From Pegea sp. RAD2-039 (Eukaryota; Chordata; Thaliacea; Salpida; Salpidae): a stretch of 64,000 nucleotides of DNA. The stretch spans positions 124,001-188,000 of the forward strand of contig JAQGEQ010000078.1 of assembly GCA_034620365.1 (NCBI GenBank). The letters run 5' to 3'. Below the pieces are notes generated by a model. The model was not told the DNA's origin. It did no database searches and saw only the letters and a list, made by a program, of their open reading frames with translations. A program made the position numbers and the translations under genes. Position 1 is the stretch's first letter. Each line of letters starts with the position of its first letter. Of the stretch, positions 24,126 through 64,000 are shown piece after piece.

Positions 24126-25382
24126 CTATAGTATTTCGAATGAAACAGTTTCTCGCGCAATATATAATCTGTGAACGATTAACTCCATCCAAATTTGGCT
24201 AACAGCAACAAGTGGAACACCGGCTCCAGAAACCACATGATAGATTGCATTGTGGTTAAAGTCAATCGGAAATTGACAGAGGCTTGTCTGAAGACCTTCT
24301 GCGGTTAAATCTTGGAGGCAAACACTAGCAAGTACAAATTGAAGTATACCTCCAAGAAGTATAATCCAAACTCCGATGCATCTCAGACACATTGCTCTTT
24401 TGAGAAGCCGATAAGGATGTGTATTTATGAGAAAAGACCTTGATCTTTGTGATATTGCAAAGATGTAAACTAGTGAAAGAGCATAAAAAAGAAGAGAGAT
24501 TTGTAAAAGTATTGAGGGAATTCTCATGTCCCACATCTCATTCCATTTAAGTAGTTTAAATTCCGATAAATTAATTTTTAAGTGATTTCTTTCAACCAAC
24601 TTTTGATAAATAATCGAATCTTCATTAGTGTCCGCCAAAAAGTTTGTTATTGACGAGATTTGAAAGAAGATGTTGACACAGCTTATACTCAGAGCAAATA
24701 AAATAAACAACATCTTGAAAGCTTTTGGCTGGTAACTTGCAAACCATTCAGTTTTAAAAGCTAAAACTTCCCACTGACGTCGAAGAATTAGTTTGGCTTG
24801 CGAGTCGTCAGTAGATGAGCGCGATCTATGTGTGCTACATTCTAGTATATTTCTTAACTCTTTGTTAGTAAGTAAGACATTAAGGGTCATAAGAATAAAA
24901 GTTGACGCAGAGAGCCCACAGAAGATACAAGCAACTGACCACAAAATATGATCCAAAACAACTCCCTTACGAGCTTTTAAATTTGCCCCTAACTCTTCTA
25001 ATGTGTTATTATGAAGATCAGTACTGAAAACCGGTGGAAGATCCAAGTCTTGGACTCTATCATGAACCGACCCACCAATTATAAACATTCCACTAAGTAG
25101 AAACAAAACTAGAGACGTCATTAAGGTCTCACTAGCCACTCTATTATGTAAAGAAAACGTTGCGAGTTTGTTGTGGGAAGCGGTGACGTCTTCATCTAGC
25201 CTGTTGTTTAGTTTCATGGGTTGGTGTAAAGTAGGTTTGCGTTTTGTTTTTTGTTGGATAATAAAGTGAATAATTAAAATGATGATGGCAGTAGTAAGCA
25301 TCAAGGCAGACACAACATAATCTGTTATGTAAGTTCCTTTTGACTCATCTAATCCTCGATGATATTGAAGATTATTTTTCAT
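24126..25382 (-). CDS. Seven-transmembrane protein of unknown function
   Basis: A single coding exon of 418 residues starting at the ATG at 25380-25382. A longer reading back to 25499 exists, but TTTTACAG, a good splice acceptor, ends 15 bases before this ATG, so the upstream part is probably intron or 5' UTR. Hydrophobic segments lie at about residues 21-43, 86-103, 145-171, 222-245, 290-311, 332-355 and 379-404, that is seven helices. A loop with the glycosylation sequon NNT (125-127) separates helices 2 and 3, and a long polar loop follows helix 3. The last helix begins with FNHNAIYH, with two histidines (377 and 382) that recall membrane metal sites of the ceramidase/adiponectin-receptor type; this link is speculative. 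No GPCR motifs (DRY, NPxxY) are seen. I do not recognise the family. Confidence 0.78.
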   Translation of the reverse strand: MKNNLQYHRGLDESKGTYITDYVVSALMLTTAIIILIIHFIIQQKTKRKPTLHQPMKLNNRLDEDVTASHNKLATFSLHNRVASETLMTSLVLFLLSGMFIIGGSVHDRVQDLDLPPVFSTDLHNNTLEELGANLKARKGVVLDHILWSVACIFCGLSASTFILMTLNVLLTNKELRNILECSTHRSRSSTDDSQAKLILRRQWEVLAFKTEWFASYQPKAFKMLFILFALSISCVNIFFQISSITNFLADTNEDSIIYQKLVERNHLKINLSEFKLLKWNEMWDMRIPSILLQISLLFYALSLVYIFAISQRSRSFLINTHPYRLLKRAMCLRCIGVWIILLGGILQFVLASVCLQDLTAEGLQTSLCQFPIDFNHNAIYHVVSGAGVPLVAVSQIWMELIVHRLYIARETVSFEIL

Positions 25383-25499
25383 AATGATTATAATTTTCTG
25401 TAAAATACAAAAGCATATTAGATATTTAGAAGCAACTTTATCAAGAGAAAATCTTTGTTCCTGACTCATCAATTTTTTCCTATTATTTCTTACAGACAC

Positions 25500-28400
25500 T
25501 AGAATCTTCTCGAGCTTTTAGAAAACACAACTTCATACTTTTGCATAAAACTAGAATTTCAAAATCATACTTGGCTTTGAAACTTTTTAACTGTTCCAAA
25601 GTTATTGTAAACTAAACCAATTAAAATTATAAAATATTTCTTCTTTCAAAACTCGGTATGGCCCCAAGGTAATTATTTTAAGATTTTTTAGTTACAAAAT
25701 AAAAAGAAAATAAAGATTAAATTAATGATATCTCTTTTTTGGTCTGCCATAAAGCTTTCTAAACTCACTTTTCTTTATCTTACAAGACTACATAAACATT
25801 TAATGATAAAAAACACCATTTAATAAAGTATCATTTATTGAAAATATTTATGAATTAGATTTTAAAGAATTTAGAGACGTTTCAACCTACATAAATTTTC
25901 TTTCCGGTTTGTATTAATTAAATACATTGAAGAACAATACTAATTATTTGGAATTTTTACATAGATTTCCCATTTAATATCTTATGAAGTATAAACTATT
26001 TAAGCTTCGTATGTTTGATATTTTATCGATTAGAGTATATAGTAGTCTATTAAGGTATTGAAGTACATCTGGATTAGATAGAAAACCCTCCATAATTAAC
26101 CTGATTGGATCTTATCAGCCCTGGTAGTTAGGCCTTGTAGGACAGGGAAAATGTGAAACAAATCTGTTGACTTCGATATCAATGTCCTAAGCTACTGGTG
26201 TGCTTCACTAAACAACAGATATAAGAAATCGGACTTTAGTATATGCTGCTCTTCATTATAATCAAACCCCACGCGTAGGTTTGAAAGAAAGAAGCATGTC
26301 TGCCAACATTCTTTCATCTATTGTTTAGGCCTACGAAACTCAGCCCTGAGAAAGTCAATAATAATATTTATACTTTAATTAAGATCGATTTTAGAAGATC
26401 TTTTTAAATTAGTATCAATAAATAAAAGCATTAAATAAATACACAATAAGAATTTAAAATAACTTTTATACTAAAATATCTTATATTTTACTTTCTATAC
26501 ACTTTATTCAAGCCTGGCTCTAAAGCATTTTCAGTTGGGACAAAAGCTTTACAAGTAGAAAAATGTAAAAAGAATTATACATGATATATTTATACTGATT
26601 TTAATCTTTTTTTCTAATCGAAACTTTTTTCACAAATTATTTTGAGTGTACACCAGTATTTCAAACCTTTGCCTAGAGGCTAGAAGTCAGAATTTAATGT
26701 TAATAATAATAAACTTAGCAATATCTTATAAAGCACCTTGGCATTTCCTTTGAAAAAAACATTGCTTTATATTGGTTATAAAATATTTTAATTTCTTATT
26801 TTGCCATTTCCTGATCAAATATGTCATAGAATAACTTTTCCAAAACCTTTAATGAAAAAATTCTTTTTCTGACTTTGATGAAGATTATTTATTGTGGAAA
26901 TATCAGTTTTTTGTACAGTAACTTCTCATTGAGTACATTACTTTATAAATCTGATGTTTTTGTAAAGAACGTTTAGAAAATTAGATAATCTTTTATAATA
27001 CAATTTAATATCGTTATTTCTCTTATATAACTGCTTAAGTACGAGTTGAAAATGTTGATCAATTAGACCACAATCATTGTTTTATTAATTTCACGATTTG
27101 TATTTTAGATCGGTTCCAGTTCCAGTAAACAGTTCCTATTTGTGTGTAATTTAAAAATCTTGTTAGAAAATATATCGATAAGAATTTTGTTAAACATTTA
27201 ATTCTATTCGCGATAGAATTGATAAAGTTTTTCTTACATTCTTATAGCTCTACTTTAAGTATAAAATGTATTATTATAAATTTACAGTTAAATTTTATAT
27301 TTGAAATATATCATAAACTGTCGTGATTATATGCTGTATGTCATTTGTGTCAAATTGATGTTTTTTAACCTAAATTTAATGTAAAAATTATTGATAACTG
27401 GGAATAAAATGAAAGTATACAATAAAAAAGTCTAAATACTTTAGTATCATCTATTCATTTAATTCTTTTAACAAAATATAATCCAATTTCATAATTAATA
27501 ATTAATTAATCCTCATTTTATTAGCATTCTTTAAAACAAACCTAAATTACAGAAATAACACCGTAATTAAAGCTATGTACCATTTTTTCTAAGCTTGATT
27601 GAATGGGTCAGCAGTGGTACTCCACCGAAATTAATAAAATAATATTTGCAAAATGATCTTGTTGCTTAGTTTAACTACACAGCCTAAACTAATCTATTTT
27701 AGCTCTATATAAAACAAAATTTCCAAAAGTTTTACTCAATCATTGAGAAGATATAAAACGTTGATGTACTAAGAGTTAGTAGAGCGCAAATTATTCGTCA
27801 TAAACAAAACATTTTTTCGTTTAACCTTCAAATACGTTTTTCGTAACTTATAAACGTGTTACTAACGTACTATAAACTCAAATTATCTGTGTTACATTTG
27901 TTTATGTTCGATAAAAATATACTTATTAAAAACTGCTTGATAATAAGTTGGCAATTTTGCTTGAAAATTGGTTTAAGCTTTGTAAATATTAACAAACAAC
28001 ATGATCTCTAAGTCAAAATTTTCAGTTTTCTGATTGTAACATAACTAATTTCAAACAGATTTTCTTTTGATGAGATCAAGTTATTTTTTAATCAAAACTC
28101 CACAACTTAAAGTTTATCCTAATAAATTGATAAAGATCGTTTCCATCTGACAGTGAAATAAATTCTTTTTCACGTATTTGCAAATACAGTTTAAAAACAG
28201 ATGAAGAAAGTAAAGATCAAATTTAGTTTCAACGTCACCACCTTAACTTATAAGAATTAATAGCTACTAAAACTAAATATGATTTAAATTTATCTCAAAG
28301 ACATTTATCTTGTAGACAGAAATGTCTTGGTTGTGGTCTTTCTTACAGTATGTCGATTTTGCAATAATTGCTTTAAAATTAAACCATATCAGAATTTTTA

Positions 28401-42728: not shown

Positions 42729-44977
42729 TCAGACAGATTTCATCTTTGTAACTGATAACTTATCAGCTAGCTCATGCTGAGGAAATGTTGATAAAAGTCA
42801 AATGGATTGATTTAAAACAACAAGTAATGGAATAGAAACTCTTACCATGTGTTCTACGACTGCTTTTGGATATGGAATCCCTCCTAACGTGGCACATTTC
42901 TGTATATGAATCCTTTCTGGATCACCTGCTACTAATATCGGTTGTTGTGGGTCAATTGGAGTTAACTCTCTTTGCATTCCGATCAAATCTTCAATTCGAT
43001 CTTCAAAGCCTCCAGCAAACGCTTTTGGATCAATTGCAATAAAGCAATGTCCCTAGAAGTAAAACATGAAGAGGATAAGATTGATAAGAAGATAATCAGA
43101 TCACCAAGTCCGCTATGCGATTAGTTCCACCCCACTTACGAATGTTTTTACTGTATGTAGCCCCTGATATTACAGCGCACAGGATCTCAACCATCAAACC
43201 GAGTCCGTAACCTTCAAAATATTTCAAGTATTATCAAAAAAATCATAAATCAAACCACCTTTATATCCGCCACTCTCATCAGCTCCTCCTAGTGGTAGTA
43301 ATCCACCGCCATTCAATACCTTATTAGGATCATCTGTTTCTCGACCTTTACTATCCGCTCCCCATCCGTGAGGAAGTTCCATCCCTTTTCTACAAGAGTA
43401 AAATATTAAAACTTTCGAAAAAATACTTAGAGCGAAAATATTTGTTTTGCTGGTAAATGATTGAAAGAAAAAACTTCGGAAGATTTGATATATAGCGGAG
43501 GTTCACAGAAGTTTAAAAGAAAAAAACTTCACAATTTAATTTCAAAGGTCATAAAAATAAATAAAATGAAATAGTTTGAAAGTTTATCAGAAATTTGTTG
43601 AATTTAGAAACTAATTAATCACTTGTGTAAAGTCAATGAACTTTTTTGAAACAATTTCAACTGACAAAAAAAACAAAAAAATATATATAAAGTTTCCGAT
43701 AAACTAATTTGATATTTGGTGAGACACAATTAACAAATATATTCTTATGAACTCCAATATTTGTAAGATTATCTTCATCAGCAAGATTTAATATGCTCCG
43801 TGTTTCAACTAGTCCTATTAATCTTGGGTTTGTTTTGTGTCATTTAGTTGTTTACTTTTGGACAGACTTTCAGCAAATATTGTAACTTGCTTAGAGATAG
43901 TTTAAAAGCAGAATAATTAAGTAGCAAACCTTCTAGCAAGTTCCAGTTTTCCTCGAGCAACTGTACTTGTAGCTGCATCCAGAACAAATCTATTATCTTC
44001 TGATCCTGGAGTAGCAAATCCAATTGGATTAGTTCCAATGATACCAGGATCACAACTTCTTGGATTATGGACAGAAGGAGCAGCATTTGTAAAAGATAAC
44101 CCCTAAAAGAAAACATTGAATCAAATTATTGGAGAAATAAACGATTTTTTTTGAAGACGAAATGAGAAGAGACTTACAATAACACCTTCATCAGCTGCCA
44201 TTAATGAGTAATATCCAGCTATTCCATAATGATTAGATCTGTGAACGGTAACCATTCCTATTCCAGTTTCTTTGGCTTTCTGTTACAATTAAAAACTTAT
44301 TTTTACTAAAAAGTATCTAAAGATAAAAAGTTGAAATGAAATCAACAAATAGTAATTGAAGTGATATACTTTAATTGCGAGTTTCATTGAAAACTTTCCT
44401 ACAGCTGCACCAAGGAGGTTTCTACCATCAACAAGAGCTGTTGAAACTGTTTCTTTTTCAATTAAAGGCTCATCATCATGAGACATAACTCCACTTACAA
44501 GATCATTGACGTACAATTCTGTTTGAAAATGAAAACAAAATATTCTAATATTGAAAAATAACAAAATGAATTCAAACGATAATTTAAAAAAAACTTCAGG
44601 AGTAACCTAATCGATTGAGACCATGACTGAAATGTCCTCTGTGATCAGCAGCAGCCAGGACTTCGGCAAGATCTTTTGCATGCTCCGGGTGAGCACCTAC
44701 TTTCAAAGCACACTCTTCAACAAAAGTCTTCACAGTAGAGATACTAATGCAGCAGGTTTCACTAAAAAGTGGTTGGTGGTTACAAGTAGATTAAAGAAGC
44801 TAAGATCAAGTTTATAATTGGATTTTGTAAGTTCAAAAAAGTTTAAAGTCAATGCGAGTTTATGTTTGAAAATATCTACTTTTTTCATCTTATTTGTCAG
44901 CTTTACTTAAAACTATTTACAAAAAATTCTCTGAAAAATTATGAAAGAAGCATTTTAACTAACCTTTGATTGGACAT
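42729..44977 (-). CDS. LDH2/MDH2-family NAD(P)-dependent oxidoreductase, copy A
   Basis: Nine exons on the minus strand: 44964-44977, 44607-44761, 44370-44518, 44178-44279, 43930-44102, 43259-43389, 43105-43211, 42846-43052, 42729-42776. Phases match throughout, giving 361 residues, the usual length of the family (PF02615; bacterial malate, sulfolactate and ureidoglycolate dehydrogenases). Conserved blocks: [14 protein letters not shown] (about 43-56), [13 protein letters not shown] (122-134), GTNPIGFA (163-170), [34 protein letters not shown] and ILVAGDPER. The first exon is only 14 coding bases (Met-Ser-Asn-Gln) and is inferred from its donor and phase. The reaction is probably NAD(P)-linked oxidation of a 2-hydroxy acid; the substrate cannot be read from sequence. 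No signal peptide. Intact and probably functional. Confidence 0.95.
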
Positions 44978-46636: not shown

Positions 46637-46686
46637 GATGAATTACCGAAAAAAACTAATTTTCAACTATATGTTAAAAGTATAAA

Positions 46687-47353
46687 TTTTGAAATTGGTT
46701 TTGACTCAAATAAGGTATAAGGCAGAAATTCAAGATTGATTCAAATTGAAAAGATCTCGATGAAAGAAAATTTTTAAAAGAAATCATTTTAAGATTTGCA
46801 TTATATTACATGGATGCTGAATCAACTTCTGACAAAAATGGGAGTTTTCACAATTTGAGATGATTCACTTCATTAATAATTACATGAACAATATAGAATT
46901 AGTAAAACTCAATCATTTGTATCTTCTTCATTTAAATTGAGGTCATCGGATCAATTGACAGCTTGGCACCGACTGAATTCTGCAAAAAATAATTGTATCT
47001 GCTTTTGAACAGCATCATATAAATGTGGATTTTAACAATTACTAACTTTTAAAAGAAATAAAATTGTTATTTTTTATTTGAAATAAATAAAAGTTCTACC
47101 ATATAATCAACAACTTGGCTGGGATAAGGAACGCCTCCCAGCTCCGAGCATTTCTTCATATGGAGACGCTCCGGATCACCAGCAATTAAAATAGGCTTCT
47201 CCGGATCACTAAGAGGTTGATTACGATGTAAATTGAGTAGCTCATCAAGTCTTCCATCAAAACCAGGAGCAAATACAGAAGGATCAATTGCAATAAAGCA
47301 CTGGCCCTTGAAAAGATGATGTTGTTACATAAAAGACATCAATTAATGTTCAA
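46687..47353 (-). repeat. Inverted repeat tract 1, partner of 54710-55376
   Basis: About 667 bases covering exons 8 and 9 of copy B, the intron between them and the 3' flank. They are almost identical, in opposite orientation, to exons 8-9 and flank of copy C. Exon 8 differs at one base by eye, and intron 8 appears identical. Identity ends abruptly at both sides; outside, a roughly 20-base indel is followed by some more similarity to about 46637 and 55408. Confidence 0.9.
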
Positions 47354-50300
47354 AAGTCGTTTTAAGATTTCATTGAAGTAATTTTCTTCTATTTTTACAA
47401 TTGTCTATGATAAAGAGATAGTTTAGTTCCATTAAAGTAATATTTTTAGATTAAAAGTGACAAATGGCTTTTTACAATAGTTTTATGGTTCTTTTCTCCA
47501 AATGACGACGGTTATAATTATTATATTAATGTTACACACCAGGTCAGCCTTTTCCGATGTTGATCCCCATTTTTTTACATCTTTCGTAAATTTTGCTCCA
47601 GACAATGCAGCGCACAAAATTTCAACCATTAAAGTTAACCCATAACCTATAAAGATAAACTGTTTGAAAAAGAAAACAGCTCTTAAAGTAAGCTCCTTTT
47701 TCTTAACTTTAACCTAAAAACAGAGCACATTTTGAAATGGGTCGTTTACTGTCGTTAAATGCACTAAAATAGCAGCTATGTATTAATGAAATGCCAAACT
47801 GAATGAAGTTAGATTAATTAAACTCAACGGTTTGAAAAATGAGTTTGAAATAAATACCCAACAATTACAAATTTTTATATAGAGTATAAGATTTTCTTAG
47901 TCTCTGAACGATTATAAATTTTATGTCGACCATAAACATGAATATGTATGCGCGACAACTACAGAAAAAATACAAACAACAGCATAGTCCTTCGTATATC
48001 GCGTCCATTGACTTTACCAAAGCTTTTGACATTGTCAGTAGGTAGACCTGTTTTCGATACTGTTGAAGATTGGCTGCCCAACAAGCCTCTTTAATACGGT
48101 ACATTTCACAAGAACACGAAGGCAAAAGGCACATCATAATGGAAGCTGCTCTGAACTATTTAACATCAAACACTTATTAAAACAAGGACGTGTCCTTTTC
48201 CCAACGCTCTCTGGGATTTTTTCTCAGTGTTACTAAAACCAGCGTTTCATACTTCTTCTAAGGAAATTCATTTAAGATTTGATGGAAGTCTTTTTAATGC
48301 ATTACGTCTAAAGGTGAAAAGTAAGATAAAAAGAATCACCATCAATGAATTGCTTTTTACCGACAACGCAGCAATTGTTGCCCACTCAGTAAAAGACATA
48401 CAGATGCTAATAGACCAATTTTTATCAGCCTGTACAGACTTTAAAATGAAAATCAGCCTAAAAATGACATAAGCGCTTTTCCCAAGATGGCCTTAACGTT
48501 TTACAGCCAATCAACATCAATGGCTATGACGTTGGGACTGTATATAATTTTGTCTATCTCGGCTCAAAAATAACATCATCAGTATCGATAGAAGCCGAGA
48601 TCAACAGTTGCATAGGTAAAGCACCTAGTAAATTTGTACGGTTTATCTAAAGGGTCTGAGGCAATCCAAAGCTATCCATCTAAATCAAGACTACCATCTA
48701 TAGACCCTTTGTCTGCAGCACGCTATTGCACACCATTCAAATTACCTTAATTTTGTTGTCATCGTCTTATATTACGTTAAAGTGGCAGCAAAAGATCTCA
48801 AATATAAAAGTCGCAAAAGACACTGGTCTGACAACAATTTAAAGCAAAGGCTTCGCTTGCTCGGATACGTCCATCGGATGAAAGACACACGGATCCCAAA
48901 GAAGCTGTCGCATAGGGAGCTATCAAAAGTTCATTAGCCGTCCTTATCTTCACATTAAAGATTCTTGCAAGCGCAATATGAAATCGCTCAACATTAACAC
49001 TAGCAATTGGGAAGATATCGCAGCAGATCTCTCCGAATGACTCTCTCTACGCAACAATCGAAGGATAGAGAAAAAAACAGCTTCAAGAAAATAAAGAAAC
49101 CCTAAAAAAATATTTTGCATCTCACTGTGTTTTGCGTTGCTCTTAATGTAGCACTCATAGCGCACCCAGTATGACCGTTCTCAGCCGAAGCAGGTCTCAT
49201 GGAAATAATATTTCATTTGGTATTTTTTACGTGGACTTCATAATAATAATAATAGTTTAGAATTGTACTTTATAGAACTATAATAGATGCGTTCTTGCAT
49301 ATTTCTACTTGAAAACAACATATATTCCATGAACAACCAGAAATTTGCGTCATACTTTGGCATTGTGTTGTTAAGTATTAATTTTCACAGATTAATGCAA
49401 TTATTAAGTTTTTGAGCAATTTGAACAAGATAAACTAGTACTACAAAAAAGCTTTTAATGCACTATTGAGTGAGCTCACATGGATAGTTTAGAATAAGTA
49501 TTCTCGACAAACAGTTTTAATTTTTTAGATAAACATGTAAAATTTGGGGTGAAACTTGATACTGAATTTTACAAAATTGAAATAAATGCTTTTAAAAAGA
49601 AATGAGCTAACTTAACTGGCGTAAACTAGTACTATCTGTTACTGAAATATCTATCAATCAATAACTGTCTAATGTTTGTAGCAAATGCTGCTCCAGATAA
49701 AGTCAAACATAGAATCTCTACCATTAAAGCAAGGCCATAACCTGTGAGTGTATATCACTTTAAACATTTACTACTAAAACATTTTTCAAGATGAATGATG
49801 CTAACAACTTCACCTTTATATCCTCCACTTTCTTCACAACCTCCTAAAGGAAGCAATCCTCCACCATTTAGAACTTTTGAAGGTTCTTCAGTTTCATTCC
49901 CATCTGCATCAGCTCCCCAACCTCTGGGCATTTTGCTTCCTTTTCTGAAATCAACAATAAAAAACTACAATAAAGCGAATTTGTAATTTATTCCTTAGTA
50001 ATGTCCATTAATTATTATTAATATTTTGATTTAAGTTTTGATCAGATTCTAGATATACTGTGATTAACTGGACGAATTTACACTGAAAGAGTCTTCTTAA
50101 TTCAAACTGATGTAGTTGTTGACCTTGCTTTAACTTCTATTTTGCCTCTTGAAACTGTGCTTGTTGCCATATCGAGACAAAACCTTGAAGTTGGTGGCCC
50201 TGGTGTTGCAAAACTGATCGGATTTGAACCACTTATTCCGCTATTTTTACTACAAGGATGAAGAACTAAAGGTGTTGTGTTTGTAAATGACATTCCCTGT

Positions 50301-52615: not shown

Positions 52616-55131
52616 ATGGCTACTGCTAGGTATTTTATGTTTATTTATTATTTTTATGTTTTCTTTGCTTTTTTAAATTAGTTTATTGGTTATTTAGTTG
52701 TATAACTTTTTCATAATATACAATTTAATTCAATATCACTACTAACAGTAAACATAAATATAGAAATAAATTGTAAATGATTAAAATATATTAAGTTATA
52801 TGTGTATACCAGTTTGTTATTAGGTATATTTGATTTTAGCTTTATTTATTATTATTCTAACTTTCTTTATAATTTAAACATTCTTCTTGTAACTAAATTG
52901 ATTACAATTTCATTTTTGTAATATCTATTTTTATTTTGTAGTAAGATAAAATGTATTCCTTTGGATGTTGTAAGAAGCTTTGTAAAGAATTGTTGTATAA
53001 AATCTGGGGCTAAAGAAGGGCATGCTGGTGACTTGGCTGATTTATTGGTAGCTGCTGATCACAGAGGACATTTCAGTCATGGTTTAAACAGACTAGGTGA
53101 CTTACTTAAGTCTTATATTGATTTGCCAGAGATATACCTCTTAAATGTACAACTTCAAAATATTTAACATAAATATTAGATATTTATAGAATATAAATCA
53201 TAACATATTTTGTACTTTGCTAACAAAGCTTATTAAATCAAAATTACTTTAAAGTATAATTATAGTTTAAGAAAGATAATATGTTATAAGATTAATATAA
53301 ATAGATTCTTTTAATTATAAAAATAATTACTTAATCATTGAAAATTGGTTTTGTTGACTTATATGATATTTTATAAACAGAGATCTATGTAAATGATTTA
53401 TTAAATGGACTAGTCTGCAAAGAAAATGAGCCAATTATTGAAAAGAAAACTGTTTCAACTGCATTAGTAAACGGCAACAATCTTCTGGGACCAGCGATTG
53501 GGAAGTTTTGTATGAAGCTTGCTATAAAGGTTGATAGAGTTTCTGAAATCTACAAGATTTATTACAAGTCAATATACTTTGGCATTCAACTTTTGATATT
53601 TTTATTTCTAATAGAAATTTTAGTTGCCATATATTATAACATCAAATTGTTCATTTAAATAATTGAAAAATTAATTACAGAAAGCCAAAGAAACGGGTAT
53701 TGGAATCATAACTGCTCATCAGTCGAACCATTATGGAATAGCTGGGTACTATTCATTAATGGCTGGAGAAGAAGGATTGATTGTAAATGTTTTTTTCAAA
53801 CATTAAATATTTTTATGTTTTATATTTCTTTTAAACTTTATGTTAAACTCGTAATTTACTAAAGACAAAACAAATTGTTTTTAAAGGGAATGTCAATGAC
53901 TAATACATCTCCTTTGGGGGTCGCTACAAGAGGTAAAGAGGCAACTTTTGGAACAAATCCGATTGCATTTACAGCTTCATCCTCTGAATCGAATGATGAT
54001 TTCACTTTGGATATGGCCACTTCTACAGTTGCTCTTGGTAAAATAGAGTTAGAAAGCAGGTTAAAACATACAGCTAGGTTTTTTAAAACGTTTATCTTAG
54101 CTTAAATATTTCTGCAATTTCTTTTTTGTAGTCCAATTAAATTTTTCATTTTATTAATTTGATAAATGACTATCAAAAAAAATGTAACAAATTTTCTATT
54201 TCTAATTATTTATGTGGTTTCAGAAAAGGAAGCAAAATGCCCAGAGGTTGGGGAGCTGATGCAGATGGGAATGAAACTGAAGAACCTTCAAAAGTTCTAA
54301 ATGGTGGAGGATTGCTTCCTTTAGGAGGTTGTGAAGAAAGTGGAGGATATAAAGGTGAAGTTGTTAGCATCATTCATCTTGAAAAATGTTTTAGTAGTAA
54401 ATGTTTAAAGTGATATACACTCACAGGTTATGGCCTTGCTTTAATGGTAGAGATTTTATGTTCGACTTTATCTGGAGCAGCATTTGCTACAAACATTAGA
54501 CGGTGGGGAGATTTGACAAAAGTTGCTAACTTAGTAAGTAATATTTGAGTAGCTCTTTCGGATGTTTATTCTATGAGCTTGATTTATCATTCTAACTTTA
54601 TTCAAATGTAAATTGAGGATTCAAACTTTCCACTTCAAAAATGGATTTAAGGTTTAAATTTTAAACTTTAAAATGTAACTTTTATTTATTTACGATTTTA
54701 ACTATAAAGTTGAACATTAATCGATGTCTTTTATGTAACAACATCATCTTTTCAAGGGCCAGTGCTTTATTGCAATTGATCCTTCTGTATTTGCTCCTGG
54801 TTTTGATGGAAGACTCGATGAGCTACTCAATTTACATCGTAATCAACCTCTTAGTGATCCGGAGAAGCCTATTTTAATTGCTGGTGATCCGGAGCGTCTC
54901 CATATGAAGAAATGCTCGGAGCTGGGAGGCGTTCCTTATCCCAGCCAAGTTGTTGATTATATGGTAGAACTTTTATTTATTTCAAATAAAAAATAACAAT
55001 TTTATTTCTTTTAAAAGTTAGTAATTGTTAAAATCCACATTTATATGATGCTGTTCAAAAGCAGATACAATTATTTTTTGCAGAATTCAGTCGGTGCCAA
55101 GCTGTCAATTGATCCGATGACCTCAATTTAA
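52616..55131 (+). CDS. LDH2/MDH2-family NAD(P)-dependent oxidoreductase, copy C
   Basis: Nine exons: 52616-52629, 52942-53096, 53381-53529, 53681-53782, 53887-54059, 54224-54354, 54427-54533, 54757-54963, 55084-55131. Lengths and phases equal those of copy A exactly, giving 361 residues. Motifs: [74 protein letters not shown] and [15 protein letters not shown]. The 14-base first exon (Met-Ala-Thr-Ala) was chosen because it gives a GT donor and the right phase at the same length as copy A; an in-frame ATG is missing in exon 2, so some upstream exon is required. The likely role is 2-hydroxy-acid dehydrogenation with NAD(P); substrate unknown. The C-terminus ends in TSI, not a clear peroxisomal signal. 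Intact. Confidence 0.92.
54224..54499 (+). repeat. Inverted repeat tract 2, copy C side
   Basis: Exon 6, the short following intron and the first part of exon 7 of copy C. The partner lies at 49669-49944 in opposite orientation. Here exon 7 continues normally ([12 protein letters not shown]), so C is the intact source and B carries the truncated copy. Confidence 0.9.
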
Positions 55132-55376
55132 ATGAAGAAGATACAAATGATTGAGTTTTACTAATTCTATATTGTTCATGTAATTATTAATGAAGTGAAT
55201 CATCTCAAATTGTGAAAACTCCCATTTTTGTCAGAAGTTGATTCAGCATCCATGTAATATAATGCAAATCTTAAAATGATTTCTTTTAAAAATTTTCTTT
55301 CATCGAGATCTTTTCAATTTGAATCAATCTTGAATTTCTGCCTTATACCTTATTTGAGTCAAAACCAATTTCAAAA
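54710..55376 (+). repeat. Inverted repeat tract 1, copy C side
   Basis: The end of intron 7, exons 8 and 9, intron 8 and 3' flank of copy C, nearly identical to 46687-47353 in reverse. Because introns and non-coding flank are as similar as exons, purifying selection on the protein cannot explain the identity. Confidence 0.9.
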
Positions 55377-57820
55377 CTGAAAATTAGTTTTATTTTGTAA
55401 TTCATCTATTTTCTCTTTAAAAACTAATCATAAAATAAAATGCCAAGTATTTACTTTGGGGTTGTGCACACGTGATTTGCTTCTTTATGACCTGAATTAC
55501 TTGGTGTTTATTAACTTATTCAATTAATTGGATGTAGATGACATATCTGAGGTGTATTTTAATGGAAATATCAGTGTAGTTCTTTTATCAATTAGGGGTT
55601 TTTCAATTTTAAGTCCAAAGGTTTATTTGCGTCTAAGAAAGTTTTATAGAAAAAAAAGTGTTTTCTGATCCGTACTAATAATGATTGTAGATAAGTCGCC
55701 AGTACTGTTTATGATGTTACATTTTAACCATCCTTCAGTAAAACATTCCGTTTGGTAAAAACTTGTTTAAAGCGTATAAGAGATTAAAGCTATATTTTCA
55801 AAATAAAGCTTTTTTTGAATATTATTGGGAATCAGTAGAATTAAGATCTAATTGCTTTTTTTAAATCATGAAACTTATATAAAAACAAACAGCTTATATA
55901 CTGTAAGCTATTTAACCGAAAACAATTAACTTTGTTGTGTAAGTTAAAACAGCAAAAGAAAATTGAAATTTTCTTTTATAAGTTTTGTAAATTATTATTT
56001 TGTTAAGTAGTATACTTCATATTTTTTTAAATGTCTAAAAATGTATCTATAGCTATATCTTGTTTATACCCAAGAAGTTTTCAAATATGCCTGTTTTTGA
56101 AACTTACAAGTTTTTACAAACATGAAGAATACGATGTCTTTCCAAAAGCTCTTTATACGTTTTTATTGAATTAAAAATCTCATTGTATCGTCTATTTCAT
56201 CTTTAGTTAGCAGTATTCCATGGAAAATGATAAAAAACTGCGTCAAAGAAGTTAATGTAAGACTTTTTACGTGGTTGCAAACAGTTGTTGGCAGTAGTTA
56301 AGAATTATTAAGTTGTTTTAAAAATGCTTATGTGTCGAATAAATAGAAGAATCAATTTTAAATAAATATTTTCATTATAGCGTAAATTATTCAACAGATA
56401 ATATTTGAACGCAATATTCAGCGCTTAAAATATGTACTCATATTTAAATGTCTAAGAAATTACAGCTTTTAAAATATGATGCTCTGTTATCATACAAAGG
56501 TCAATTTATATTTTAAACAGTTGTTTTATTAATAAGTCTTAATTATATTCATATTTGAAATTCTGATCATCAATAAGAGTTTACATTCAAAATCTATAAC
56601 CATTTTATTGTAATGGAAGCATGATTATTTTAGATTTAATTGATTGAAACCTTGTTAGCAGTAATTCTATTGTGTTTCATAATTCACAGAATACTATAAA
56701 CAGTTGAAAATAAATTTTGTTATTATTTGTCTTTACGTGCATCTTGAGAAAAATCCTATAGTTTGTATACATTATTCAATTATTTTAATTACAAATATAT
56801 ATCCTCAAAAAACTTATATTTTTAAACAAGGGAATCGAAATTTAACCAATGTAAAGAGAAAAGTTAAAGCATAGTAATTTGTTACAATTTTATGATTTCG
56901 TAAAATAAAATATAATGTATGCTTGTTCTTTTTAATGTGGAAAGTAGGTTTGTAGGGGATTCCCCTAACTAATCACAAGTGAGCCCTAACTTAAATGCCT
57001 GTAACAAACACGAGTATTTTCGTAGATTAATTTCGTTCTCTTAAACTATTGCCGCGGTATGAGAAACTGCACCTTAGGAAATGTTTTAATAGTAAATTTC
57101 CTTCATTCAACTTTATTCAAAGCTTTACTGTTTACAAAATAATATTTATTAAAAATTAATCAAATTTCTATTTTTTACTTTTCTTTTTGTTATAAATCCT
57201 CCAAAAGCTAATCTATTTCTTTTATGAAATTTAGTTATCACAATTGTTATTTTATAAGTTTTAAGTTAATTTGATGACATGTCTGTATAATCTGTTATTG
57301 CTATTCATATCTGGAGCCTTAGAAGAAAAAAAAATATATAAGAAATTAAATTTTTTATACAAAAAGTACTAAACTTTTTGTAAACTTGATTTTTATCATT
57401 AATTTCATCAATTATACTTTTTTGTAAATTTTGTATCATGATATTAGTTCACCATCAAATCAATGTATAATATTTTTTTTTTGGTTTTATTCGTATGATT
57501 TTTATTTTTGGTAAACTTATTGATTTTGATAAGCTGTTATATTAGTTTGTGAAATTATTTTGATTCATTATTAAAATATTTTTGATGTTATTGTAAGTTT
57601 TTTTTGTATTTTTAATATAAATTCATAAACTTTTTTTGTCACAAATTTTAAACATCAGATTTGATGAAAGATTTTATTAAAGTTCATTAAGCTTATTAAA
57701 TTTATTAATAGTTTTGCATTTAAATTCAATCTTATCATACTTCTAACTAAATGACTTTTATTACTATAGTTATTTTTTCATATTTTTAGATTGTTGTTAA
57801 ATGAACTTTTTTAAACAAAA
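55377..57820. other. Spacer upstream of the MPP8-like gene
   Basis: AT-rich DNA between copy C and the chromodomain gene. A less AT-rich patch lies at about 56949-57080 and includes a perfect GGGGATTCCCC palindrome and a CCGCGG word; this may be part of the promoter or a 5' UTR exon of the downstream gene. Nothing else recognised. Confidence 0.45.
56955..56965. promoter_or_regulatory. Perfect kappaB-like palindrome upstream of MPP8-like gene
   Basis: GGGGATTCCCC matches the Rel/NF-kappaB consensus GGGRNNYYCC exactly and is symmetrical. It lies about 860 bases before the ATG of the MPP8-like gene, in a patch of unusual base composition where the rest of the spacer is almost only A and T. Binding is not shown; a chance or repeat-derived origin is possible. 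Confidence 0.3.
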
Positions 57821-60800
57821 ATGTCTGATCAGAAAGCTGAATCAGAAGAAGAAACTATTTTTGAAGTTGAGGAGATCTTAGATGATTATGATGGAGATCA
57901 GAAGTACTATAGGTGATCAAAGTTTTTATATGATAATATTTAAATTTTCAAATTGTTTAGATAAATAATTATAATTATTCAAAAAGTTTATAATTTTTAT
58001 GGAAGTGATTTTATATAATCATAAAAACCATGATATTGTTCTTGTAAAAAAATTAAAGTATTTGTTTAAAAAAGTTTCTAAATAGGAAACACTAAACTAA
58101 GAAGAAATTAGTAAGATTCAAAGATACTTTTAAAATTGTTGATAGAAAGTATTATTAAGAATTCATTACTATAGTTCAGTCTCACTTTTAATATAAAGTT
58201 TGTTTCATAAATCTAAATTTTAATGACAACTTGTATAATTTGATTTGTTTAATTGATAGAGTTAAATGGAAAGATTATGATGAAATCACATGGGAGCCAA
58301 AGCTAAATTTGACTGGATGCAAAGACATGGTTCAAGTAAACATTTTTTATATTTGTTTATGTTTCTCCTGTTTTATAGATTCATCAAGTTCTATGACAAT
58401 TATTATTGTTTTATTTCTCAATAAAAACAATAGTTTATAGCTTCATATATGTATACATTTTGGTTTTTATGAAATGTTTTTTATTAAGGAGTATGAAAGA
58501 GATAAACATACAAAGAAAAGAAAAATAAATCCTCCATTTAAGAAAAAAATGAAAGAAAACAGCAGAACAAAAAAACGAAGAATTGGTAACTTCACTTTTT
58601 TAGCTTTTTAAGGAAATCTTAGATATTTAAACGGGTATTTGATTGTGAGCTACTTATTTTTGGAGTTTCTTATGCATTGCTTTTTTCTTGAAAGTATTTA
58701 AATGTTAGATACAGAAACGATATCAGATTCTGCAGCATTTAATGGAGGTTTCCTTCTTTATTTATAATGATGTACTTATAATTTTCAAATGTTTTAAGCG
58801 AAATCTAAACCACAAAATACTGTTTGGAATAAGAAAAAGTCACAAAATTTAGCTGTAGTACTTAGAAGTAGTTCCCGAAATTGCCTGAGAAGCGGATTGG
58901 ATAGAAGAGGTAATTTGTTTTTTTTGAAAATCACCCCTTGGGGAAGTGGCTGATGACCCCTCCCTTATTTTAAGATCATTAATAGTTCTCGTTTGTTTTA
59001 TATTATCTATTTGAATTTATTTTATTATTTTAATGATAATAGAAGAAGTTCTATGAGATAGAAACTGAAAATGAGGTTAAACCACTACTAACTCCTAAAT
59101 TCAGATTGTGAAAAGCTAGGTTTAGAGAAATTATCGATTTGTATTTACAAGTATGCTATAAAATTATGAACTTTAGCAATTTTTTCATTTATGTTATTAT
59201 CATATCTTTTGAATCTATTTAAAAACAACCATAATATAAAATTATTTTTTATCTAGTAATTACTTCAATAAATATTTGAAGTGATTGGATTTATGTTAGA
59301 GTTGAAATATCTCTACAACTAAATCATAAACTAATAAGAATTTGTCTTTTCATTACAGTTAAATATATATCACAGCATACTTATGCTCGTAATTTAAGTC
59401 TTTTTCTAATTATATGTTTATACTAAAATGATCTTATAAATAAAAAAACGATTATATTTACTTCTCTACAGTAGATCATTACTCTTGCATCAACAACTAA
59501 CTATTTCTGTGAAAGAAAATAGAAAATATCTTTGGGCTTTAAACCAATTGATAATTTTTAAGAAACATTTTGGTTTAGATATTTTCTTATTTGTATTTAT
59601 ACTAATGTTTTTTTAAACAATTTTCAGCAAATTATCCTTCTTCGTCAAACTCAACAAGCCTAAGCTTAAAAAAGGTATTTGGAGTTGATATATGAAATTA
59701 TTTTCTATCAATGTTAACATAGTTTACAATTATTTGATTTCTTTTAATTGCTTCTTTATTATTTTATAATTAACATAAATTGTAATTTTTAGGCTGGAAA
59801 ACAGAAACTTGAGAAAAGTAATTTCAATTGCAGTAAAAGAAAGGAAAATAAACCTGATAAAAGTCATTTTGTACCTAATGTAAGTTTTCTGTCCTTTTAA
59901 ATTGTCTTTGAAGACTGAATTACTTCTTTCTAATTTTGCTAATTGTATCGTTCTTGTTGCTTTTATATTTTTAAAACATTCTGGAATTTATTGAATTTGT
60001 TTCAATTGTTTAAACTCTTTATATTTTTTAGTCATCTTCTTTTTCTAATTATATTGAGGATGGAGAAACTGATTCAAGAAACTCTTTGATGAATGTTGGG
60101 AAGTTAGTTTATTAGCAATTCTCGTTGTAACATGTTGCTGTTTATAAAAAATCGTAAATTGAAAATTTCAATTCTTCAATTTAGTTTTATTAAAAAGTAA
60201 ATAAACTTTAAACTATAAAAAAGCAATTGATTTTGTTGGTATATAGAAATATGGAATCGGAATCTTCTGCTCCTTCTCTAAATGTTGTTGAAGAAGACCC
60301 AACAATGTTTAAAATAACGGAAAGTTGTGATTCAAGCGTTTCAACAATCGAAAAAACTTCTGAAATAGAAGAAGCAAACGATGAAACTCAACTGAATATG
60401 TCAATTGATGCATGTCTAGAAGATAAACAAAGTTGTAGTAGTCTTCTTCACACCGTAGTAGAGTTGCCTCATTTGAATGAAACGTTGAATCGTCTTAGTG
60501 AAGGATGTATTAAATCTGAAATCCTGGATAAGTCTTTGGAAAGAAGTGAAGAAAGAAGAGTTGATAAAAATGATGATAAAAAAGAAGGATCTTATTTAAG
60601 CACTGCAAAAAGAAAAGGTGACGATCAGAATTTTGTGAAACACCAAATCAGCAAAAGCGAAAAAATGGAAGAAGCCCAAATTGAAGAAGCCCAAATTGAG
60701 GAACTCCAAACAGAAGAAGTCCAAACAGAAGAAGCCCAAATTGAAGAACTCCAAGCAGAAGAAGCCCAAATTGAGGAACTCCAAATTGAAGAAGCCCAAA

Positions 60801-63800
60801 TTGAGGAACTCCAAACAGAAGAACTCCAAACAGAAGAACTCCAAACAGAAGAAGCCCAAACAGAAGAAGCCCAAATTGAGGAACTCCAAATTGAAGAGCT
60901 CCAAGCAGAAGAACTCCAAACAGAAGAACTCCAAACAGAAGAAGCCCAAACAGAAGAAGTCCAAATTGAGGAACTCCAAACAGAAGAACTCCAAACAGAA
61001 GAAGCCCAAATTGAAGAGCTCCAAGCAGAAGAAGTCCAAATTGAAGAAGCCCAAATTGAAGAGCTCCAAGCAGAAGAACTCCAAATTGAAGAGCTCCAAA
61101 CAGAAGAACTCCAAATTGAAGAAGCCCAAATTGAAGAAGCCCAAATTGAAGAGCTCCAAACAGAAGAACTCCAAATTGAGGAACTCCAAACAGAAGAACT
61201 CCAAATTGAAGAAGCCCAAATTGAAGAACTCCAAATTGAAGAGCTCCAAACAGAAGAACTCCAAATTGAAGAGCTCCAAGCAGAAGAACTCCAAATTGAA
61301 GAGCTCCAAGCAGAAGAACTCCAAATTGAAGAAGTCCAAATTGAAGAAGCCCAAGTTGAAGAAGCTCATTCAAGTATGGTAAAAGAAAACCAAATAGATG
61401 AGTCACCTATGTCTAAATTTGTGGTGGATGAAAATGGTGAAGAGATTGAAGTTTCCTACGCAAACATTGCAGAAATTAATCGTCGCTACGAAATAGAATA
61501 TCAAAAGGAACAAGAAGAACTAAAAAGACAAGAAGCTTTAAAACTACCGCGATATCCTTTTTACGAAACATCTTGTGGTTAGTTTGTAGTATTTTGACAA
61601 TAAATTTTCAATAATTTAAATAAATGTGGAATTCATTTTTGAAATTTGTTAATTTGTTGTTCAAATATTGTTTAAGATTACATGGACAACTTTCCTGGTG
61701 ATCCTGAGAGAGAACATGAAGAAGATATGAGAGAGTATCAGGAACTATTAGATGCAAATCCTACCTTCTACGCAAATCAATACAATCTAACCGCTGACGT
61801 AAATACAGATGGAAGTACATCTCCTACTAATGTTGAAGATAATCGAACAGAAACAGTTTTAAGTTATGAAATGGATTCAGGTGTCTTGGCGACTTCATCT
61901 GGAACAGTTAATGATGATCATCCTGAAGCAGCTGATCTTTCTGAAGCAAAGAATGAAAATCTTTTTGGAGCAAAAAATGAAGATCTTTCTGGAGTTGAAG
62001 ATGAAGATCTTTCTGGATTAGATGATGAAGATCTTTCTGGAGTAAAGAATGAAGATCTTTCTGGAGTAGAAAATGAAGATCTTTCTGGATTAGATGATGA
62101 AGATCTTTCTGGAGTAGATGATGAAGATCTTTCTGGAGTAAAGAATGAAGATCTTTCTAGATTAGATGATGAAGATCTTTCTGGAGTAAAGAATGAAGAT
62201 CTTTCTGGAGTAGAAAATGAAGATCTTTCTGGAGTAGATGATGAAGATCTTTCTAGATTAGATGATGAAGATCCTTCTGGAGTAAAAAATGAAGATCTTT
62301 TTGGAGTAGAAAATAAAGATCTTTCTAAAGTAGAAAATAAAGATCTTTCTGGAGTAAAGAATGAAGAACTTTCCGGAGTAGAAAATGAAGATCTTTCTGG
62401 AGTAGAAAATAAAGATCTTTCTGGAGTAAAGAATGAAGATCTTTCTAAAGTAGAAAATGAAGATCTTTCTGGAGTAGAAAATAAAGATCTTTCTGGATTA
62501 GATGATGAAGATCTTTCTGGAGTAAAGAATGAAGATCTTTCTAAAGTAGAAAATGAAGATCTTTCCGACAGTCTTTCTGGTGTTACAGGTGAAGATTCTT
62601 CTGCAGTTGTAGAAGCTTCTATGTTCACCGAAGACAAGACAAAGTTTGAGAAAATTAAATCATCGATAATAACTGCTGATGATTGTAATCAAGCAACTTT
62701 TATTAATTCTAATTTACTACAAACTGATATTTCAAATGAAAATACAATTAAGATTTCTAAGTTGAATCAAGTCACCGATACCACTAGAGGGCGAACAAAT
62801 GAAGAAGTACAATTAGTAAATCCTGAGTTATACCAACCAGAGGAACTAATAACGATAAAAAATAACACTGAAACACCGGATCAAAAACCAGATTTTAATC
62901 GTAATACCAAAGAAAATAGTGAATCACCAACGAAAGCTTCAGAAATGGTTGTTTTAGATTCTATAGATTTAGATGATTATGTTGAAGAAATACCATACTC
63001 AAGTGAATCAGATAATAAAATCGTAGAACACAAAGAGGTTAAAGAAAGAAAATTAGGATTAGAAGATTTTAAAGCAAATAGCTGGATCGATTCACAAAAT
63101 TTATTTTCTCGTTTACAAGCAAGCTCAGATGAAAACACAACTGAACGCTTGGCATGCAAATCAAAGAAGAAGACTTCAAAGATAGACTTAACAGAAGATG
63201 AATACTTGGCTGGGTCAAGTTCTATTGTACGTGACTCTGATAGTAACGACGCATCATCTCATTCAAGTAAAAGCTCCTACTCGTCTAGAAGGTCAAAGTA
63301 TAGAAAGAAGACTCGTGATCGGTATAAACCAAGTACTCCCTACACTTTCAAGGCGATATCTCACAAACTAGAAAACAACCAAAAATTGACAGAAGCTGAA
63401 CGCTTTAATTGGGATAAAAACAATAAATTTTTGAAAATGAAGGTTAACTTTGATCTACCGCAGGTAATAACACAGTTTCTTATAATAATCGGAAATTTTA
63501 TCTCAAAGTTCATTTCAGATTAGTCAGTCGAAAATTGAAAATTATTTTATGACATCTTCTGGTGATCGGATGTTAAATAATCTTCAACCTGATCCGACTA
63601 TAAACAATAGCCAATTTAGATGTTTTGTTCGTGACAACAATGTTAATAAAGTGAAACAAGCTTTTGAATCATCTAATTTGTATAATCTTGAACACGTGGT
63701 AAGTCAGCTACGATTTATTCATCTCTTTGTTTTAGATTGATTTATTTTAGGATGGATCTTCAATGACAGTTCTGATGATTGCAAGTATATCAGGTTACCA

Positions 63801-64000
63801 TTCAATGGTTCAAGTAAGTTGATTCTTGTAATAGTTTTCTTCAACTTGTAAGACATCAATAAAAATTGAAGAACTTTATCTGTGAAGGTTGCTGATTATT
63901 TGTTAAAAAGTGATTAGTTTAATTTATTAAAATTTATCTGAATTATTTGAGGAACTTGAACGACATGATAATAAAGCAGAAGATTTGTTTATCAGCGAAA
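57821..64000 (+). CDS. MPHOSPH8: MPP8-like chromodomain-ankyrin protein (HUSH subunit), 3' end beyond window
   Basis: Exons: 57821-57912, 58260-58335, 58489-58585, 58709-58747, 58799-58909, 59628-59674, 59793-59879, 60032-60102, 60247-61577, 61677-63463, 63519-63698, 63751-63813, then the gene continues off the window. All junctions are GT-AG with matching phase; 1327 codons are visible. Residues 13-60 form a chromodomain (FEVEEILDD, VKWKDYDEITWEP, GCKDMVQEYE) with the methyl-lysine cage aromatics F14, W34 and Y37. A basic KKRK-type stretch follows, then a disordered Ser/Lys-rich part, a 15-base array (about residues 346-581), a 24-base array (about 738-948), and from about 1280 ankyrin-type sequence (FVRDNNVNKVKQAFESSNLY, then GSSMTVLMIASISGYHSMVQ) that resembles the start of the MPP8 ankyrin block. 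MPP8 reads H3K9me3 and works with TASOR and periphilin in the HUSH complex. Orthology is inferred from domain order and both domain sequences. Confidence 0.88.
60665..61370 (+). repeat. 15-base in-frame tandem array in MPP8-like exon 9
   Basis: About 47 units of 15 bases, consensus GAAGAACTCCAAATT with variants GAAGCCCAA and CAAACA. Each unit encodes five residues (EELQI, EEAQI, EELQT, EEVQT, EELQA). The frame is never broken. Higher-order blocks of several units recur, as expected from unequal exchange. The encoded segment is strongly acidic and probably helical. Confidence 0.95.
61940..62570 (+). repeat. 24-base in-frame tandem array in MPP8-like exon 10
   Basis: About 26 units of 24 bases, consensus GAAGATCTTTCTGGAGTA followed by AAGAAT, GAAAAT or GATGAT. 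Each unit encodes eight residues such as EDLSGVKN, EDLSGVEN or EDLSGLDD. The array is unrelated in sequence to the one in exon 9 but is also acidic. Each unit carries an AGATCT (BglII) word, and Ser in a D/E-rich context offers repeated casein-kinase-2-like sites (inference). Confidence 0.95.

Follow-up and report, generated by a model that had tools for sequence, protein, structure and literature searches.

The MPP8-like gene and its setting

The analysed window, a stretch of 64,000 nucleotides (nt) from the salp Pegea sp. RAD2-039, lies on a contig of 370 kb within a genome assembly of 105.7 Mb in 387 contigs, and its GC content per 2-kb bin is 20-35%. Its last part carries the beginning of a predicted gene that is probably an orthologue of MPP8, the histone H3 lysine 9 (H3K9) methyl reader of the HUSH complex. 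Extended beyond the window end at 64000, the gene model runs from 57821 to 65229 (L009:2229) on the plus strand and comprises 18 exons encoding 1,566 amino acids (aa). The product has an N-terminal chromodomain, from which a 1,216-residue spacer leads to ankyrin repeats and then to a C-terminal region. The parts of the model and the basis for each are as follows:

57821..57912 (+): exon 1, aa 1-31, with the start codon (ATG at 57821) and the chromodomain's first half; gene model, Pfam, genome match to the gene's own protein
58260..58335 (+): exon 2, next segment of the chromodomain, including W34 and Y37; gene model, Pfam, PDB matches, alignment to human MPP8
58489..58585 (+): exon 3, aa 57-89, with the last chromodomain residues and a basic stretch; gene model, Pfam
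58709-58747, 58799-58909, 59628-59674, 59793-59879 and 60032-60102 (+): exons 4-8, spacer aa 89-207; predicted GT-AG junctions, consistent phases
60247..61577 (+): exon 9, 1,331 nt, sense strand 43.9% A and 18.3% T, holding array 1; gene model, base composition
61677..63463 (+): exon 10, 1,787 nt, 38.6% A and 27.9% T, holding array 2 and more spacer; gene model, base composition
63519..63698 (+): exon 11, in which the ankyrin region begins; gene model, alignment to 8QFB
63751..63813 (+): exon 12, ankyrin repeat; gene model, Pfam
63814..64000 within the window (+): intron 12, crossing the window edge; gene model
L009:1161-1325, 1381-1508, 1559-1704, 1757-1902, 1963-2043 and 2176-2229 (+): exons 13-18, remaining ankyrin repeats, C-terminal PINIT-like region and stop; gene model, Pfam, alignment

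All 17 introns of the predicted model are of the GT-AG type, are 50-718 nt long and have consistent phases. The splice sites were chosen by eye to keep the frame, including those of the small exons 4-8, and this consistency is not independent proof. Stronger coding evidence than the phases of hand-picked junctions comes from the four non-repeat flanks within exons 9 and 10, which are free of stops, a result equalled by 0, 4, 0 and 0 of 2,000 base shuffles, respectively. Since the array units are stop-free in several frames on both strands, it is these flanks rather than the arrays that support the coding frame. Pfam finds no domain in spacer exons 4-8. Searches of the genome with the gene's own protein gave high identity at this single locus, and a close paralogue or a second haplotype was therefore rejected. 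No Rfam match at gathering scores was obtained within the window, and a search of the assembly for COX1 gave no match.

Evidence for an MPP8-type protein

The chromodomain encoded by exons 1-3 matches Pfam PF00385 over aa 14-60 (E 8e-9). The preliminary description of the locus had named F14, W34 and Y37 as its cage residues, and these indeed share alignment columns with the F, W and Y of human MPP8, which we take to be the aromatic cage. In a PDB search, the best three matches are all human MPP8 (E 6.6e-10, 1.9e-9 and 2.3e-9), followed by CDYL (E 9e-9). Identity to the human MPP8 chromodomain is 43% over 53 aa, the version encoded here being one residue shorter before W34 and two residues shorter after Y37.

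An ankyrin block had been seen to start within the window. It begins at 63519 and continues beyond the edge, where extension of the sequence revealed further ankyrin repeats and a C-terminal region in exons 13-18, collinear with the human MPP8 structure 8QFB. The repeats near the C-terminus match PF12796 with an E-value of 3.1e-31. Over 251-254 aa, the C-terminal half is about 30% identical to 8QFB (pairwise E 1.5e-24). A small comparison database was assembled from the spliced window gene and 12 fetched loci representing eight distinct places; besides the window gene, one of these loci contains ankyrin repeats, namely the top match of a whole-genome search with human MPP8. Within this database, the C-terminal half of human MPP8 has its best alignment with the window gene, at 83.6 bits compared with 57.0 bits for the other ankyrin locus, and the best phmmer domain scores are 66.2 and 41.7 bits, respectively. 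In the alignment, R741 and F813 of human MPP8 correspond to K1440 and W1514, with the R741/K1440 pair adjoining a gap. Both human residues are described as lying at the contact with TASOR DomI and as part of a loss-of-function triple mutant (PMC7618375).

A candidate partner is encoded on another contig. The preliminary description had called for a search for TASOR, and a TASOR-like gene was found whose DUF3715 domain has an E-value of 2.5e-30; a PDB search with an E-value limit of 1 gave one match for it, human TASOR (6TL1, E 4.2e-31). DUF3715 also occurs in TEX15, a protein reported to be specific to vertebrates; invertebrates are reported to have TASOR-like proteins that combine DUF3715, SPOC and DomI (PMC10578480). 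The genome also contains a Tudor_4 exon (E 2.1e-9), a domain presumably linked to SETDB1.

Two further observations were made near the TASOR-like gene. About 1 kb downstream of its last modelled exon and on the same strand, an open frame (L015:3368-4033) ends in an Arg/Phe/Pro/Tyr-rich tail that recalls the RNA-binding end of Periphilin. Downstream of the gene also lies a reverse-transcriptase fragment (L016:1803-2312, minus strand), with an RVT_1 score of 25.8 bits, below the cut-off of 29.6.

Probable assignment to MPP8

Several results weigh against the assignment. With the human MPP8 chromodomain as query, locus L001, labelled HP1-like in this analysis, scores 55.5 bits and locus L005 48.9 bits, compared with 43.9 bits, obtained in another run, for the spliced chromodomain of the window gene; this gene is absent among the nine BLAST matches listed for the query. 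The chromodomain is not a reciprocal best match within the genome, MPP8 being best in the forward (PDB) direction. For the ankyrin part, the summed phmmer score of the human C-terminal half is 67.6 for the window gene and 124.6 for the long ankyrin gene. In the whole-genome search with human MPP8, the locus appears once among 59 matches, low in the ranking, through one ankyrin exon with 24.7 bits, and compared exon by exon across the genome, other ankyrin loci outscore it. Human MPP8 is absent among the best 60 of 394 matches in a PDB search with the ankyrin region. The post-ankyrin region alone matches human MPP8 weakly, in a core of 51 aa (E 0.002), and retrieves nothing relevant from the PDB with phmmer. 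With regard to the partners, the SPOC-like region following DUF3715 scores 15 bits, below the Pfam cut-off of 25, and an exon matching MORC S5 is barely above its cut-off (26.6 compared with 26.2 bits). Profiles for Periphilin_C (PF25234) and PIN_TASOR gave no match in the genome, nor any positive in control genomes.

Some of these results have an explanation. The higher summed phmmer score of the other ankyrin gene is due to its many more ankyrin repeats, and introns split the domains of the window locus, which is the context of its single 24.7-bit match. The same splitting explains why a Pfam chromodomain family search of the genome returned 15 matches without the MPP8-like gene. The ankyrin part appears to be partly generic. 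Because an HP1-like gene outscores the window gene in the reverse direction, the chromodomain by itself does not settle the family; for a short conserved domain, a reciprocal match is a supporting test and not family-defining by itself. The local score of the post-ankyrin match was reached by 5 of 1,000 shuffles and the global score by 43 of 1,000.

The reciprocal protein search thus gave a divided outcome, favouring the window gene in the best single alignment of the C-terminal half and other genes in the chromodomain and the summed phmmer scores. Domain order, the matches in the PDB, a C-terminal half collinear with the human one and the presence of a TASOR-like gene support the proposal of a HUSH-type MPP8 homologue; the reciprocal match remains partial, and a Periphilin homologue was not found by the Periphilin_C profile, a search that had no positive control. 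It is the sum of chromodomain type, domain order, collinear C-terminal half and TASOR-like gene that makes orthology with MPP8 probable.

The chromodomain and ankyrin exons might instead form separate transcription units, or represent an independent fusion of the two domains that is not MPP8. An in-frame ATG near the start of exon 9 (aa 209) would allow for this, and the connecting small exons 4-8 depend on splice sites picked by eye. Such an origin would also fit the HP1-like gene's higher chromodomain score in the reverse direction and the summed ankyrin scores favouring another gene. However, order, strand and end domains are those of human MPP8, the frame stays open across all 17 short introns, and the human C-terminal half finds its best single alignment here. 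This alternative is therefore considered unlikely.

As an MPP8 orthologue, the protein would bind methylated H3K9 or H3K9-like peptides with its N-terminal chromodomain, and its C-terminal ankyrin and PINIT-like region would bind the TASOR-like protein at the latter's SPOC/DomI part. H3K9 methyltransferases would then be recruited to transcribed repeats. Within the spacer, array 1 would contribute a highly acidic, perhaps helical stretch and array 2 an acidic disordered one. What we infer from the sequence comprises transcription and splicing of the gene, binding of peptides, assembly of the complex, silencing and whatever role the arrays may have; the roles of the chromodomain and the C-terminus follow by homology.

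Acidic repeat arrays

The spacer holds two different tandem arrays:

60665..61369 (+): array 1, 47 consecutive units of 15 nt (5 aa), [I/T/A]EE[L/A/V]Q, net charge -94; Tandem Repeats Finder (TRF), unit pattern
61955..62554 (+): array 2, 25 consecutive units of 24 nt (8 aa), EDLSGV[EKD][ND], net charge -53; TRF, unit pattern

For array 2, TRF counts 26.3 copies compared with 25 by unit pattern. Both arrays lie in one open frame, with zero gap between successive units, in agreement with the original account of two different in-frame arrays. That account had also called them perfect, which does not hold, as TRF gives 80-87% matches for array 1 and 85% for array 2. It was correct in describing a middle region of more than 1,000 residues, but this region is not dominated by the arrays, which occupy 435 of the 1,216 spacer residues. 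Distinct unit sequences number 13 among the 47 units of array 1 and 14 among the 25 of array 2, and the E-E pair is unbroken through all 47 units of array 1.

Fast, recombination-driven change had been suspected. The longest runs of identical units are three in array 1 and two in array 2, lengths that 179 and 180 of 300 shuffles, respectively, also reach, and the suspicion is thus not supported. Array 1 has a higher-order period of six units (90 nt) that was reached by 5 of 1,000 shuffles, whereas the best lag of array 2 was reached by 115 of 1,000. Because the 90-nt period is so rare in shuffles, block duplication has probably occurred within array 1, without any sign of recency. These unit statistics do not support fresh homogenisation or recent expansion of the arrays. 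Searched over the genome, the exact unit patterns match on the arrays' own contig (16 of 16 matches for array 1, 8 of 8 for array 2) and nowhere else. An origin by copying from elsewhere in the genome was rejected on this basis, in a search that diverged copies would escape.

Ratios of nonsynonymous to synonymous changes per site, computed on a minimum spanning tree of the unit types, are 0.92 for array 1 and 1.62 for array 2; with three synonymous steps each, both are very imprecise. A non-random sample of 180,548 bases, consisting of the window and 12 loci with 1 kb counted twice, contains four arrays of at least 200 bp, namely arrays 1 and 2 and two noncoding 52-bp arrays by the TASOR-like gene. 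The latter minisatellites (92-93% matches; G000:C3:4527592-4529466 and 4545845-4546548, in L014, L015 and L016) are situated directly 5' of the TASOR-like exons and where that contig ends, and one of them is split over two loci.

Folding was modelled with single-sequence AlphaFold2 on unspliced exon reads. For exon 9 (mean pLDDT 66.9, pTM 0.20), helices are predicted over exon residues 121-228 and 236-378, so that array 1 is modelled as two long helices, with pLDDT values that are mostly 72-91 but fall to about 46-54 midway. Exon 10, including array 2, is modelled as disordered (mean pLDDT 41.2). These weak predictions suggest that array 1 is perhaps helical and array 2 disordered. The segment from the end of array 1 to the end of exon 9 (61370-61576) is modelled with two short strands plus a helix of 28 residues, pLDDT reaching 90, and is a possible small motif. 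A match of Pentapeptide_4 to array 1 (20.9 bits, cut-off 38) was dismissed as a chance hit on repeat sequence.

Origin and possible role of the arrays

Most likely, the arrays are tolerated expansions of MPP8's long spacer. Two in-frame minisatellites would have grown within an unusually long spacer, where they are most likely tolerated because reach and charge matter there and an exact sequence does not. The middle of human MPP8 (residues 125-535) is described as unstructured in predictions (PMC7618375), and residues 1-499 are reported to be dispensable in a reporter assay (PMC7532188). Both observations make array expansion in the spacer plausible. The C-terminal part of MPP8 is reported to be required in human cells (PMC7532188, PMC7618375).

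A strictly neutral version of this history has about an even chance of being right. Here, slippage or unequal exchange enlarged the minisatellites within a disordered spacer; they have no silencing role and are retained only since multiples of three spare the frame; the gene could still be MPP8. The ratios of 0.92 and 1.62 give no sign of purifying selection on amino acids, although so few synonymous steps make them a poor guide. The units have diverged and are not homogenised, and noncoding 52-bp minisatellites are present elsewhere in the genome. In contrast, neutrality does not readily account for two arrays of unrelated sequence that are both strongly acidic, or for an E-E pair kept in 47 consecutive units.

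The net charges of both arrays would fit functional acidic devices, a possible but clearly less probable reading. Array 1 would form a long charged helix spacing the chromatin-bound and TASOR-bound ends, and array 2 a flexible acidic tuner of contacts with basic histone tails or condensates. The helices in exon 9 and the disorder of array 2 in the AlphaFold2 models are consistent with such a division, but overall model quality is low. Furthermore, E-rich repeats tend to come out helical in single-sequence models, and without basic partners such a helix would be weakened by repulsion between its E residues.

It is very doubtful that the complex targets the gene of its own subunit. In this reading, growing arrays have turned exons 9 and 10 into long, A-rich exons for repetitive polypeptide, features by which HUSH reportedly selects its targets. 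Nascent MPP8 RNA would then recruit HUSH, and array length would set the level of the silencer in a dosage feedback, in an animal that is not a vertebrate. HUSH repression is reported to increase with sense-strand A content and length, the L1 ORF2 containing 41% A and 20% T (PMC8770142), and exons that encode repetitive polypeptides are reported to carry H3K9me3 that depends on TASOR (PMC7532188). Feedback on Xist via SETDB1 and HUSH is described in a 2026 paper (PMC13243529). Of the eight stop-to-stop frames of at least 200 codons in the sample, those of exons 9 and 10 have the highest A content. The A fraction expected from the protein is 0.418 for exon 9 (observed 0.439) and 0.368 for exon 10 (observed 0.386). 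None of 300 recodings of either exon reached the observed value, with codon usage taken from 2,600 codons of other open frames and exons 1-8 of the MPP8-like gene. Special selection for A-richness was rejected, as protein composition accounts for most of it, though both exons are slightly richer than the protein demands. This composition effect also argues against self-targeting, as does the size of the exons, with exon 9 below and exon 10 just above the reported 1.5 kb, in a gene that has 17 introns. Furthermore, Periphilin, the RNA-binding subunit, was not found in the profile search, which lacked a positive control. Among the titles and abstract openings listed in a literature search, in which subscription journals were thinly covered and one listing comprised 10 of 409 matches, none was about HUSH acting on its own genes.

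An assembly artefact or mis-sizing, to which tandem repeats are often prone, is highly improbable as the source of the arrays, since units vary in order and sequence, the frame is open through both arrays and the exact patterns are confined to one contig, although the copy number could still be wrong.

Comparison with known systems

Human MPP8 (MPHOSPH8; PDB 3QO2 and 9H77 for the chromodomain, 8QFB for the ankyrin and PINIT-like part) has the same order of chromodomain, long spacer, ankyrin repeats and C-terminal region. The window gene differs in its length, 1,566 compared with 860 residues, in the two acidic tandem arrays of its 1,216-residue spacer and in its weakly matched PINIT-like part.

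HP1, CDY and CDYL share the chromodomain fold and aromatic residues, and their scores are close (CDYL E 9e-9, MPP8 E 6.6e-10). In contrast to these proteins, ankyrin repeats and a C-terminal region follow the chromodomain of the window gene. CDY has a hydratase-like end. In the stretches scanned, aa 1-650 and 1183-1566, Pfam gave no second chromo-type domain.

The chloroplast protein cpSRP43 is a plant protein with ankyrin repeats and chromodomains in another order. It gave a weak PDB match at the chromodomain level (E 4.7e-4); the genome studied here has a TASOR-like gene as well.

The yeast RITS subunit Chp1 is likewise an H3K9-methyl chromodomain reader in a transcript-linked silencing complex and has been compared with HUSH (PMC7532188). 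Unlike the window gene product, Chp1 itself bears SPOC, DomII and PIN, and its description there includes no ankyrin block (PMC7532188).

Evolutionary reach

HUSH has been called vertebrate-specific (PMC7532188, PMC10915761). The genome analysed here, whose size and short introns speak against a vertebrate, probably hosts an MPP8-type gene outside vertebrates, a subject absent from the titles and abstract openings listed in the literature search, with the coverage given above. Automatic annotations of invertebrate MPP8-like genes probably exist. If MPP8-type and TASOR-like genes do occur together in this 105.7-Mb genome, the reader-scaffold pair would seem to predate vertebrates and could be studied in a small animal. 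For a probable MPP8-type gene with an enlarged acidic repeat spacer, identity and evolutionary reach matter more than the arrays. The arrays nevertheless constitute a natural test of whether a specific sequence is required in MPP8's spacer, and they raise the question of whether a complex that silences repetitive exons controls its own gene.

Other features of the window

Upstream of the MPP8-like gene, two inverted repeats with 99% complementarity are present, one of 676 nt (46678-47353 with 54710-55385) and one of 290 nt (49664-49953 with 54215-54504). Exons of Ldh_2 (malate/L-lactate dehydrogenase) form two opposed sets, at 43224-44606 on the minus strand and at 53377-54413 on the plus strand; two of the four open frames scanned score above the family cut-off and two below. 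A frame on the minus strand at 889-1704 encodes a mitochondrial carrier protein (Mito_carr, E 8.1e-58). Also on the minus strand, 24129-25517 holds an open frame of 463 aa with hydrophobic, membrane-like stretches and without a Pfam match at E up to 0.01.

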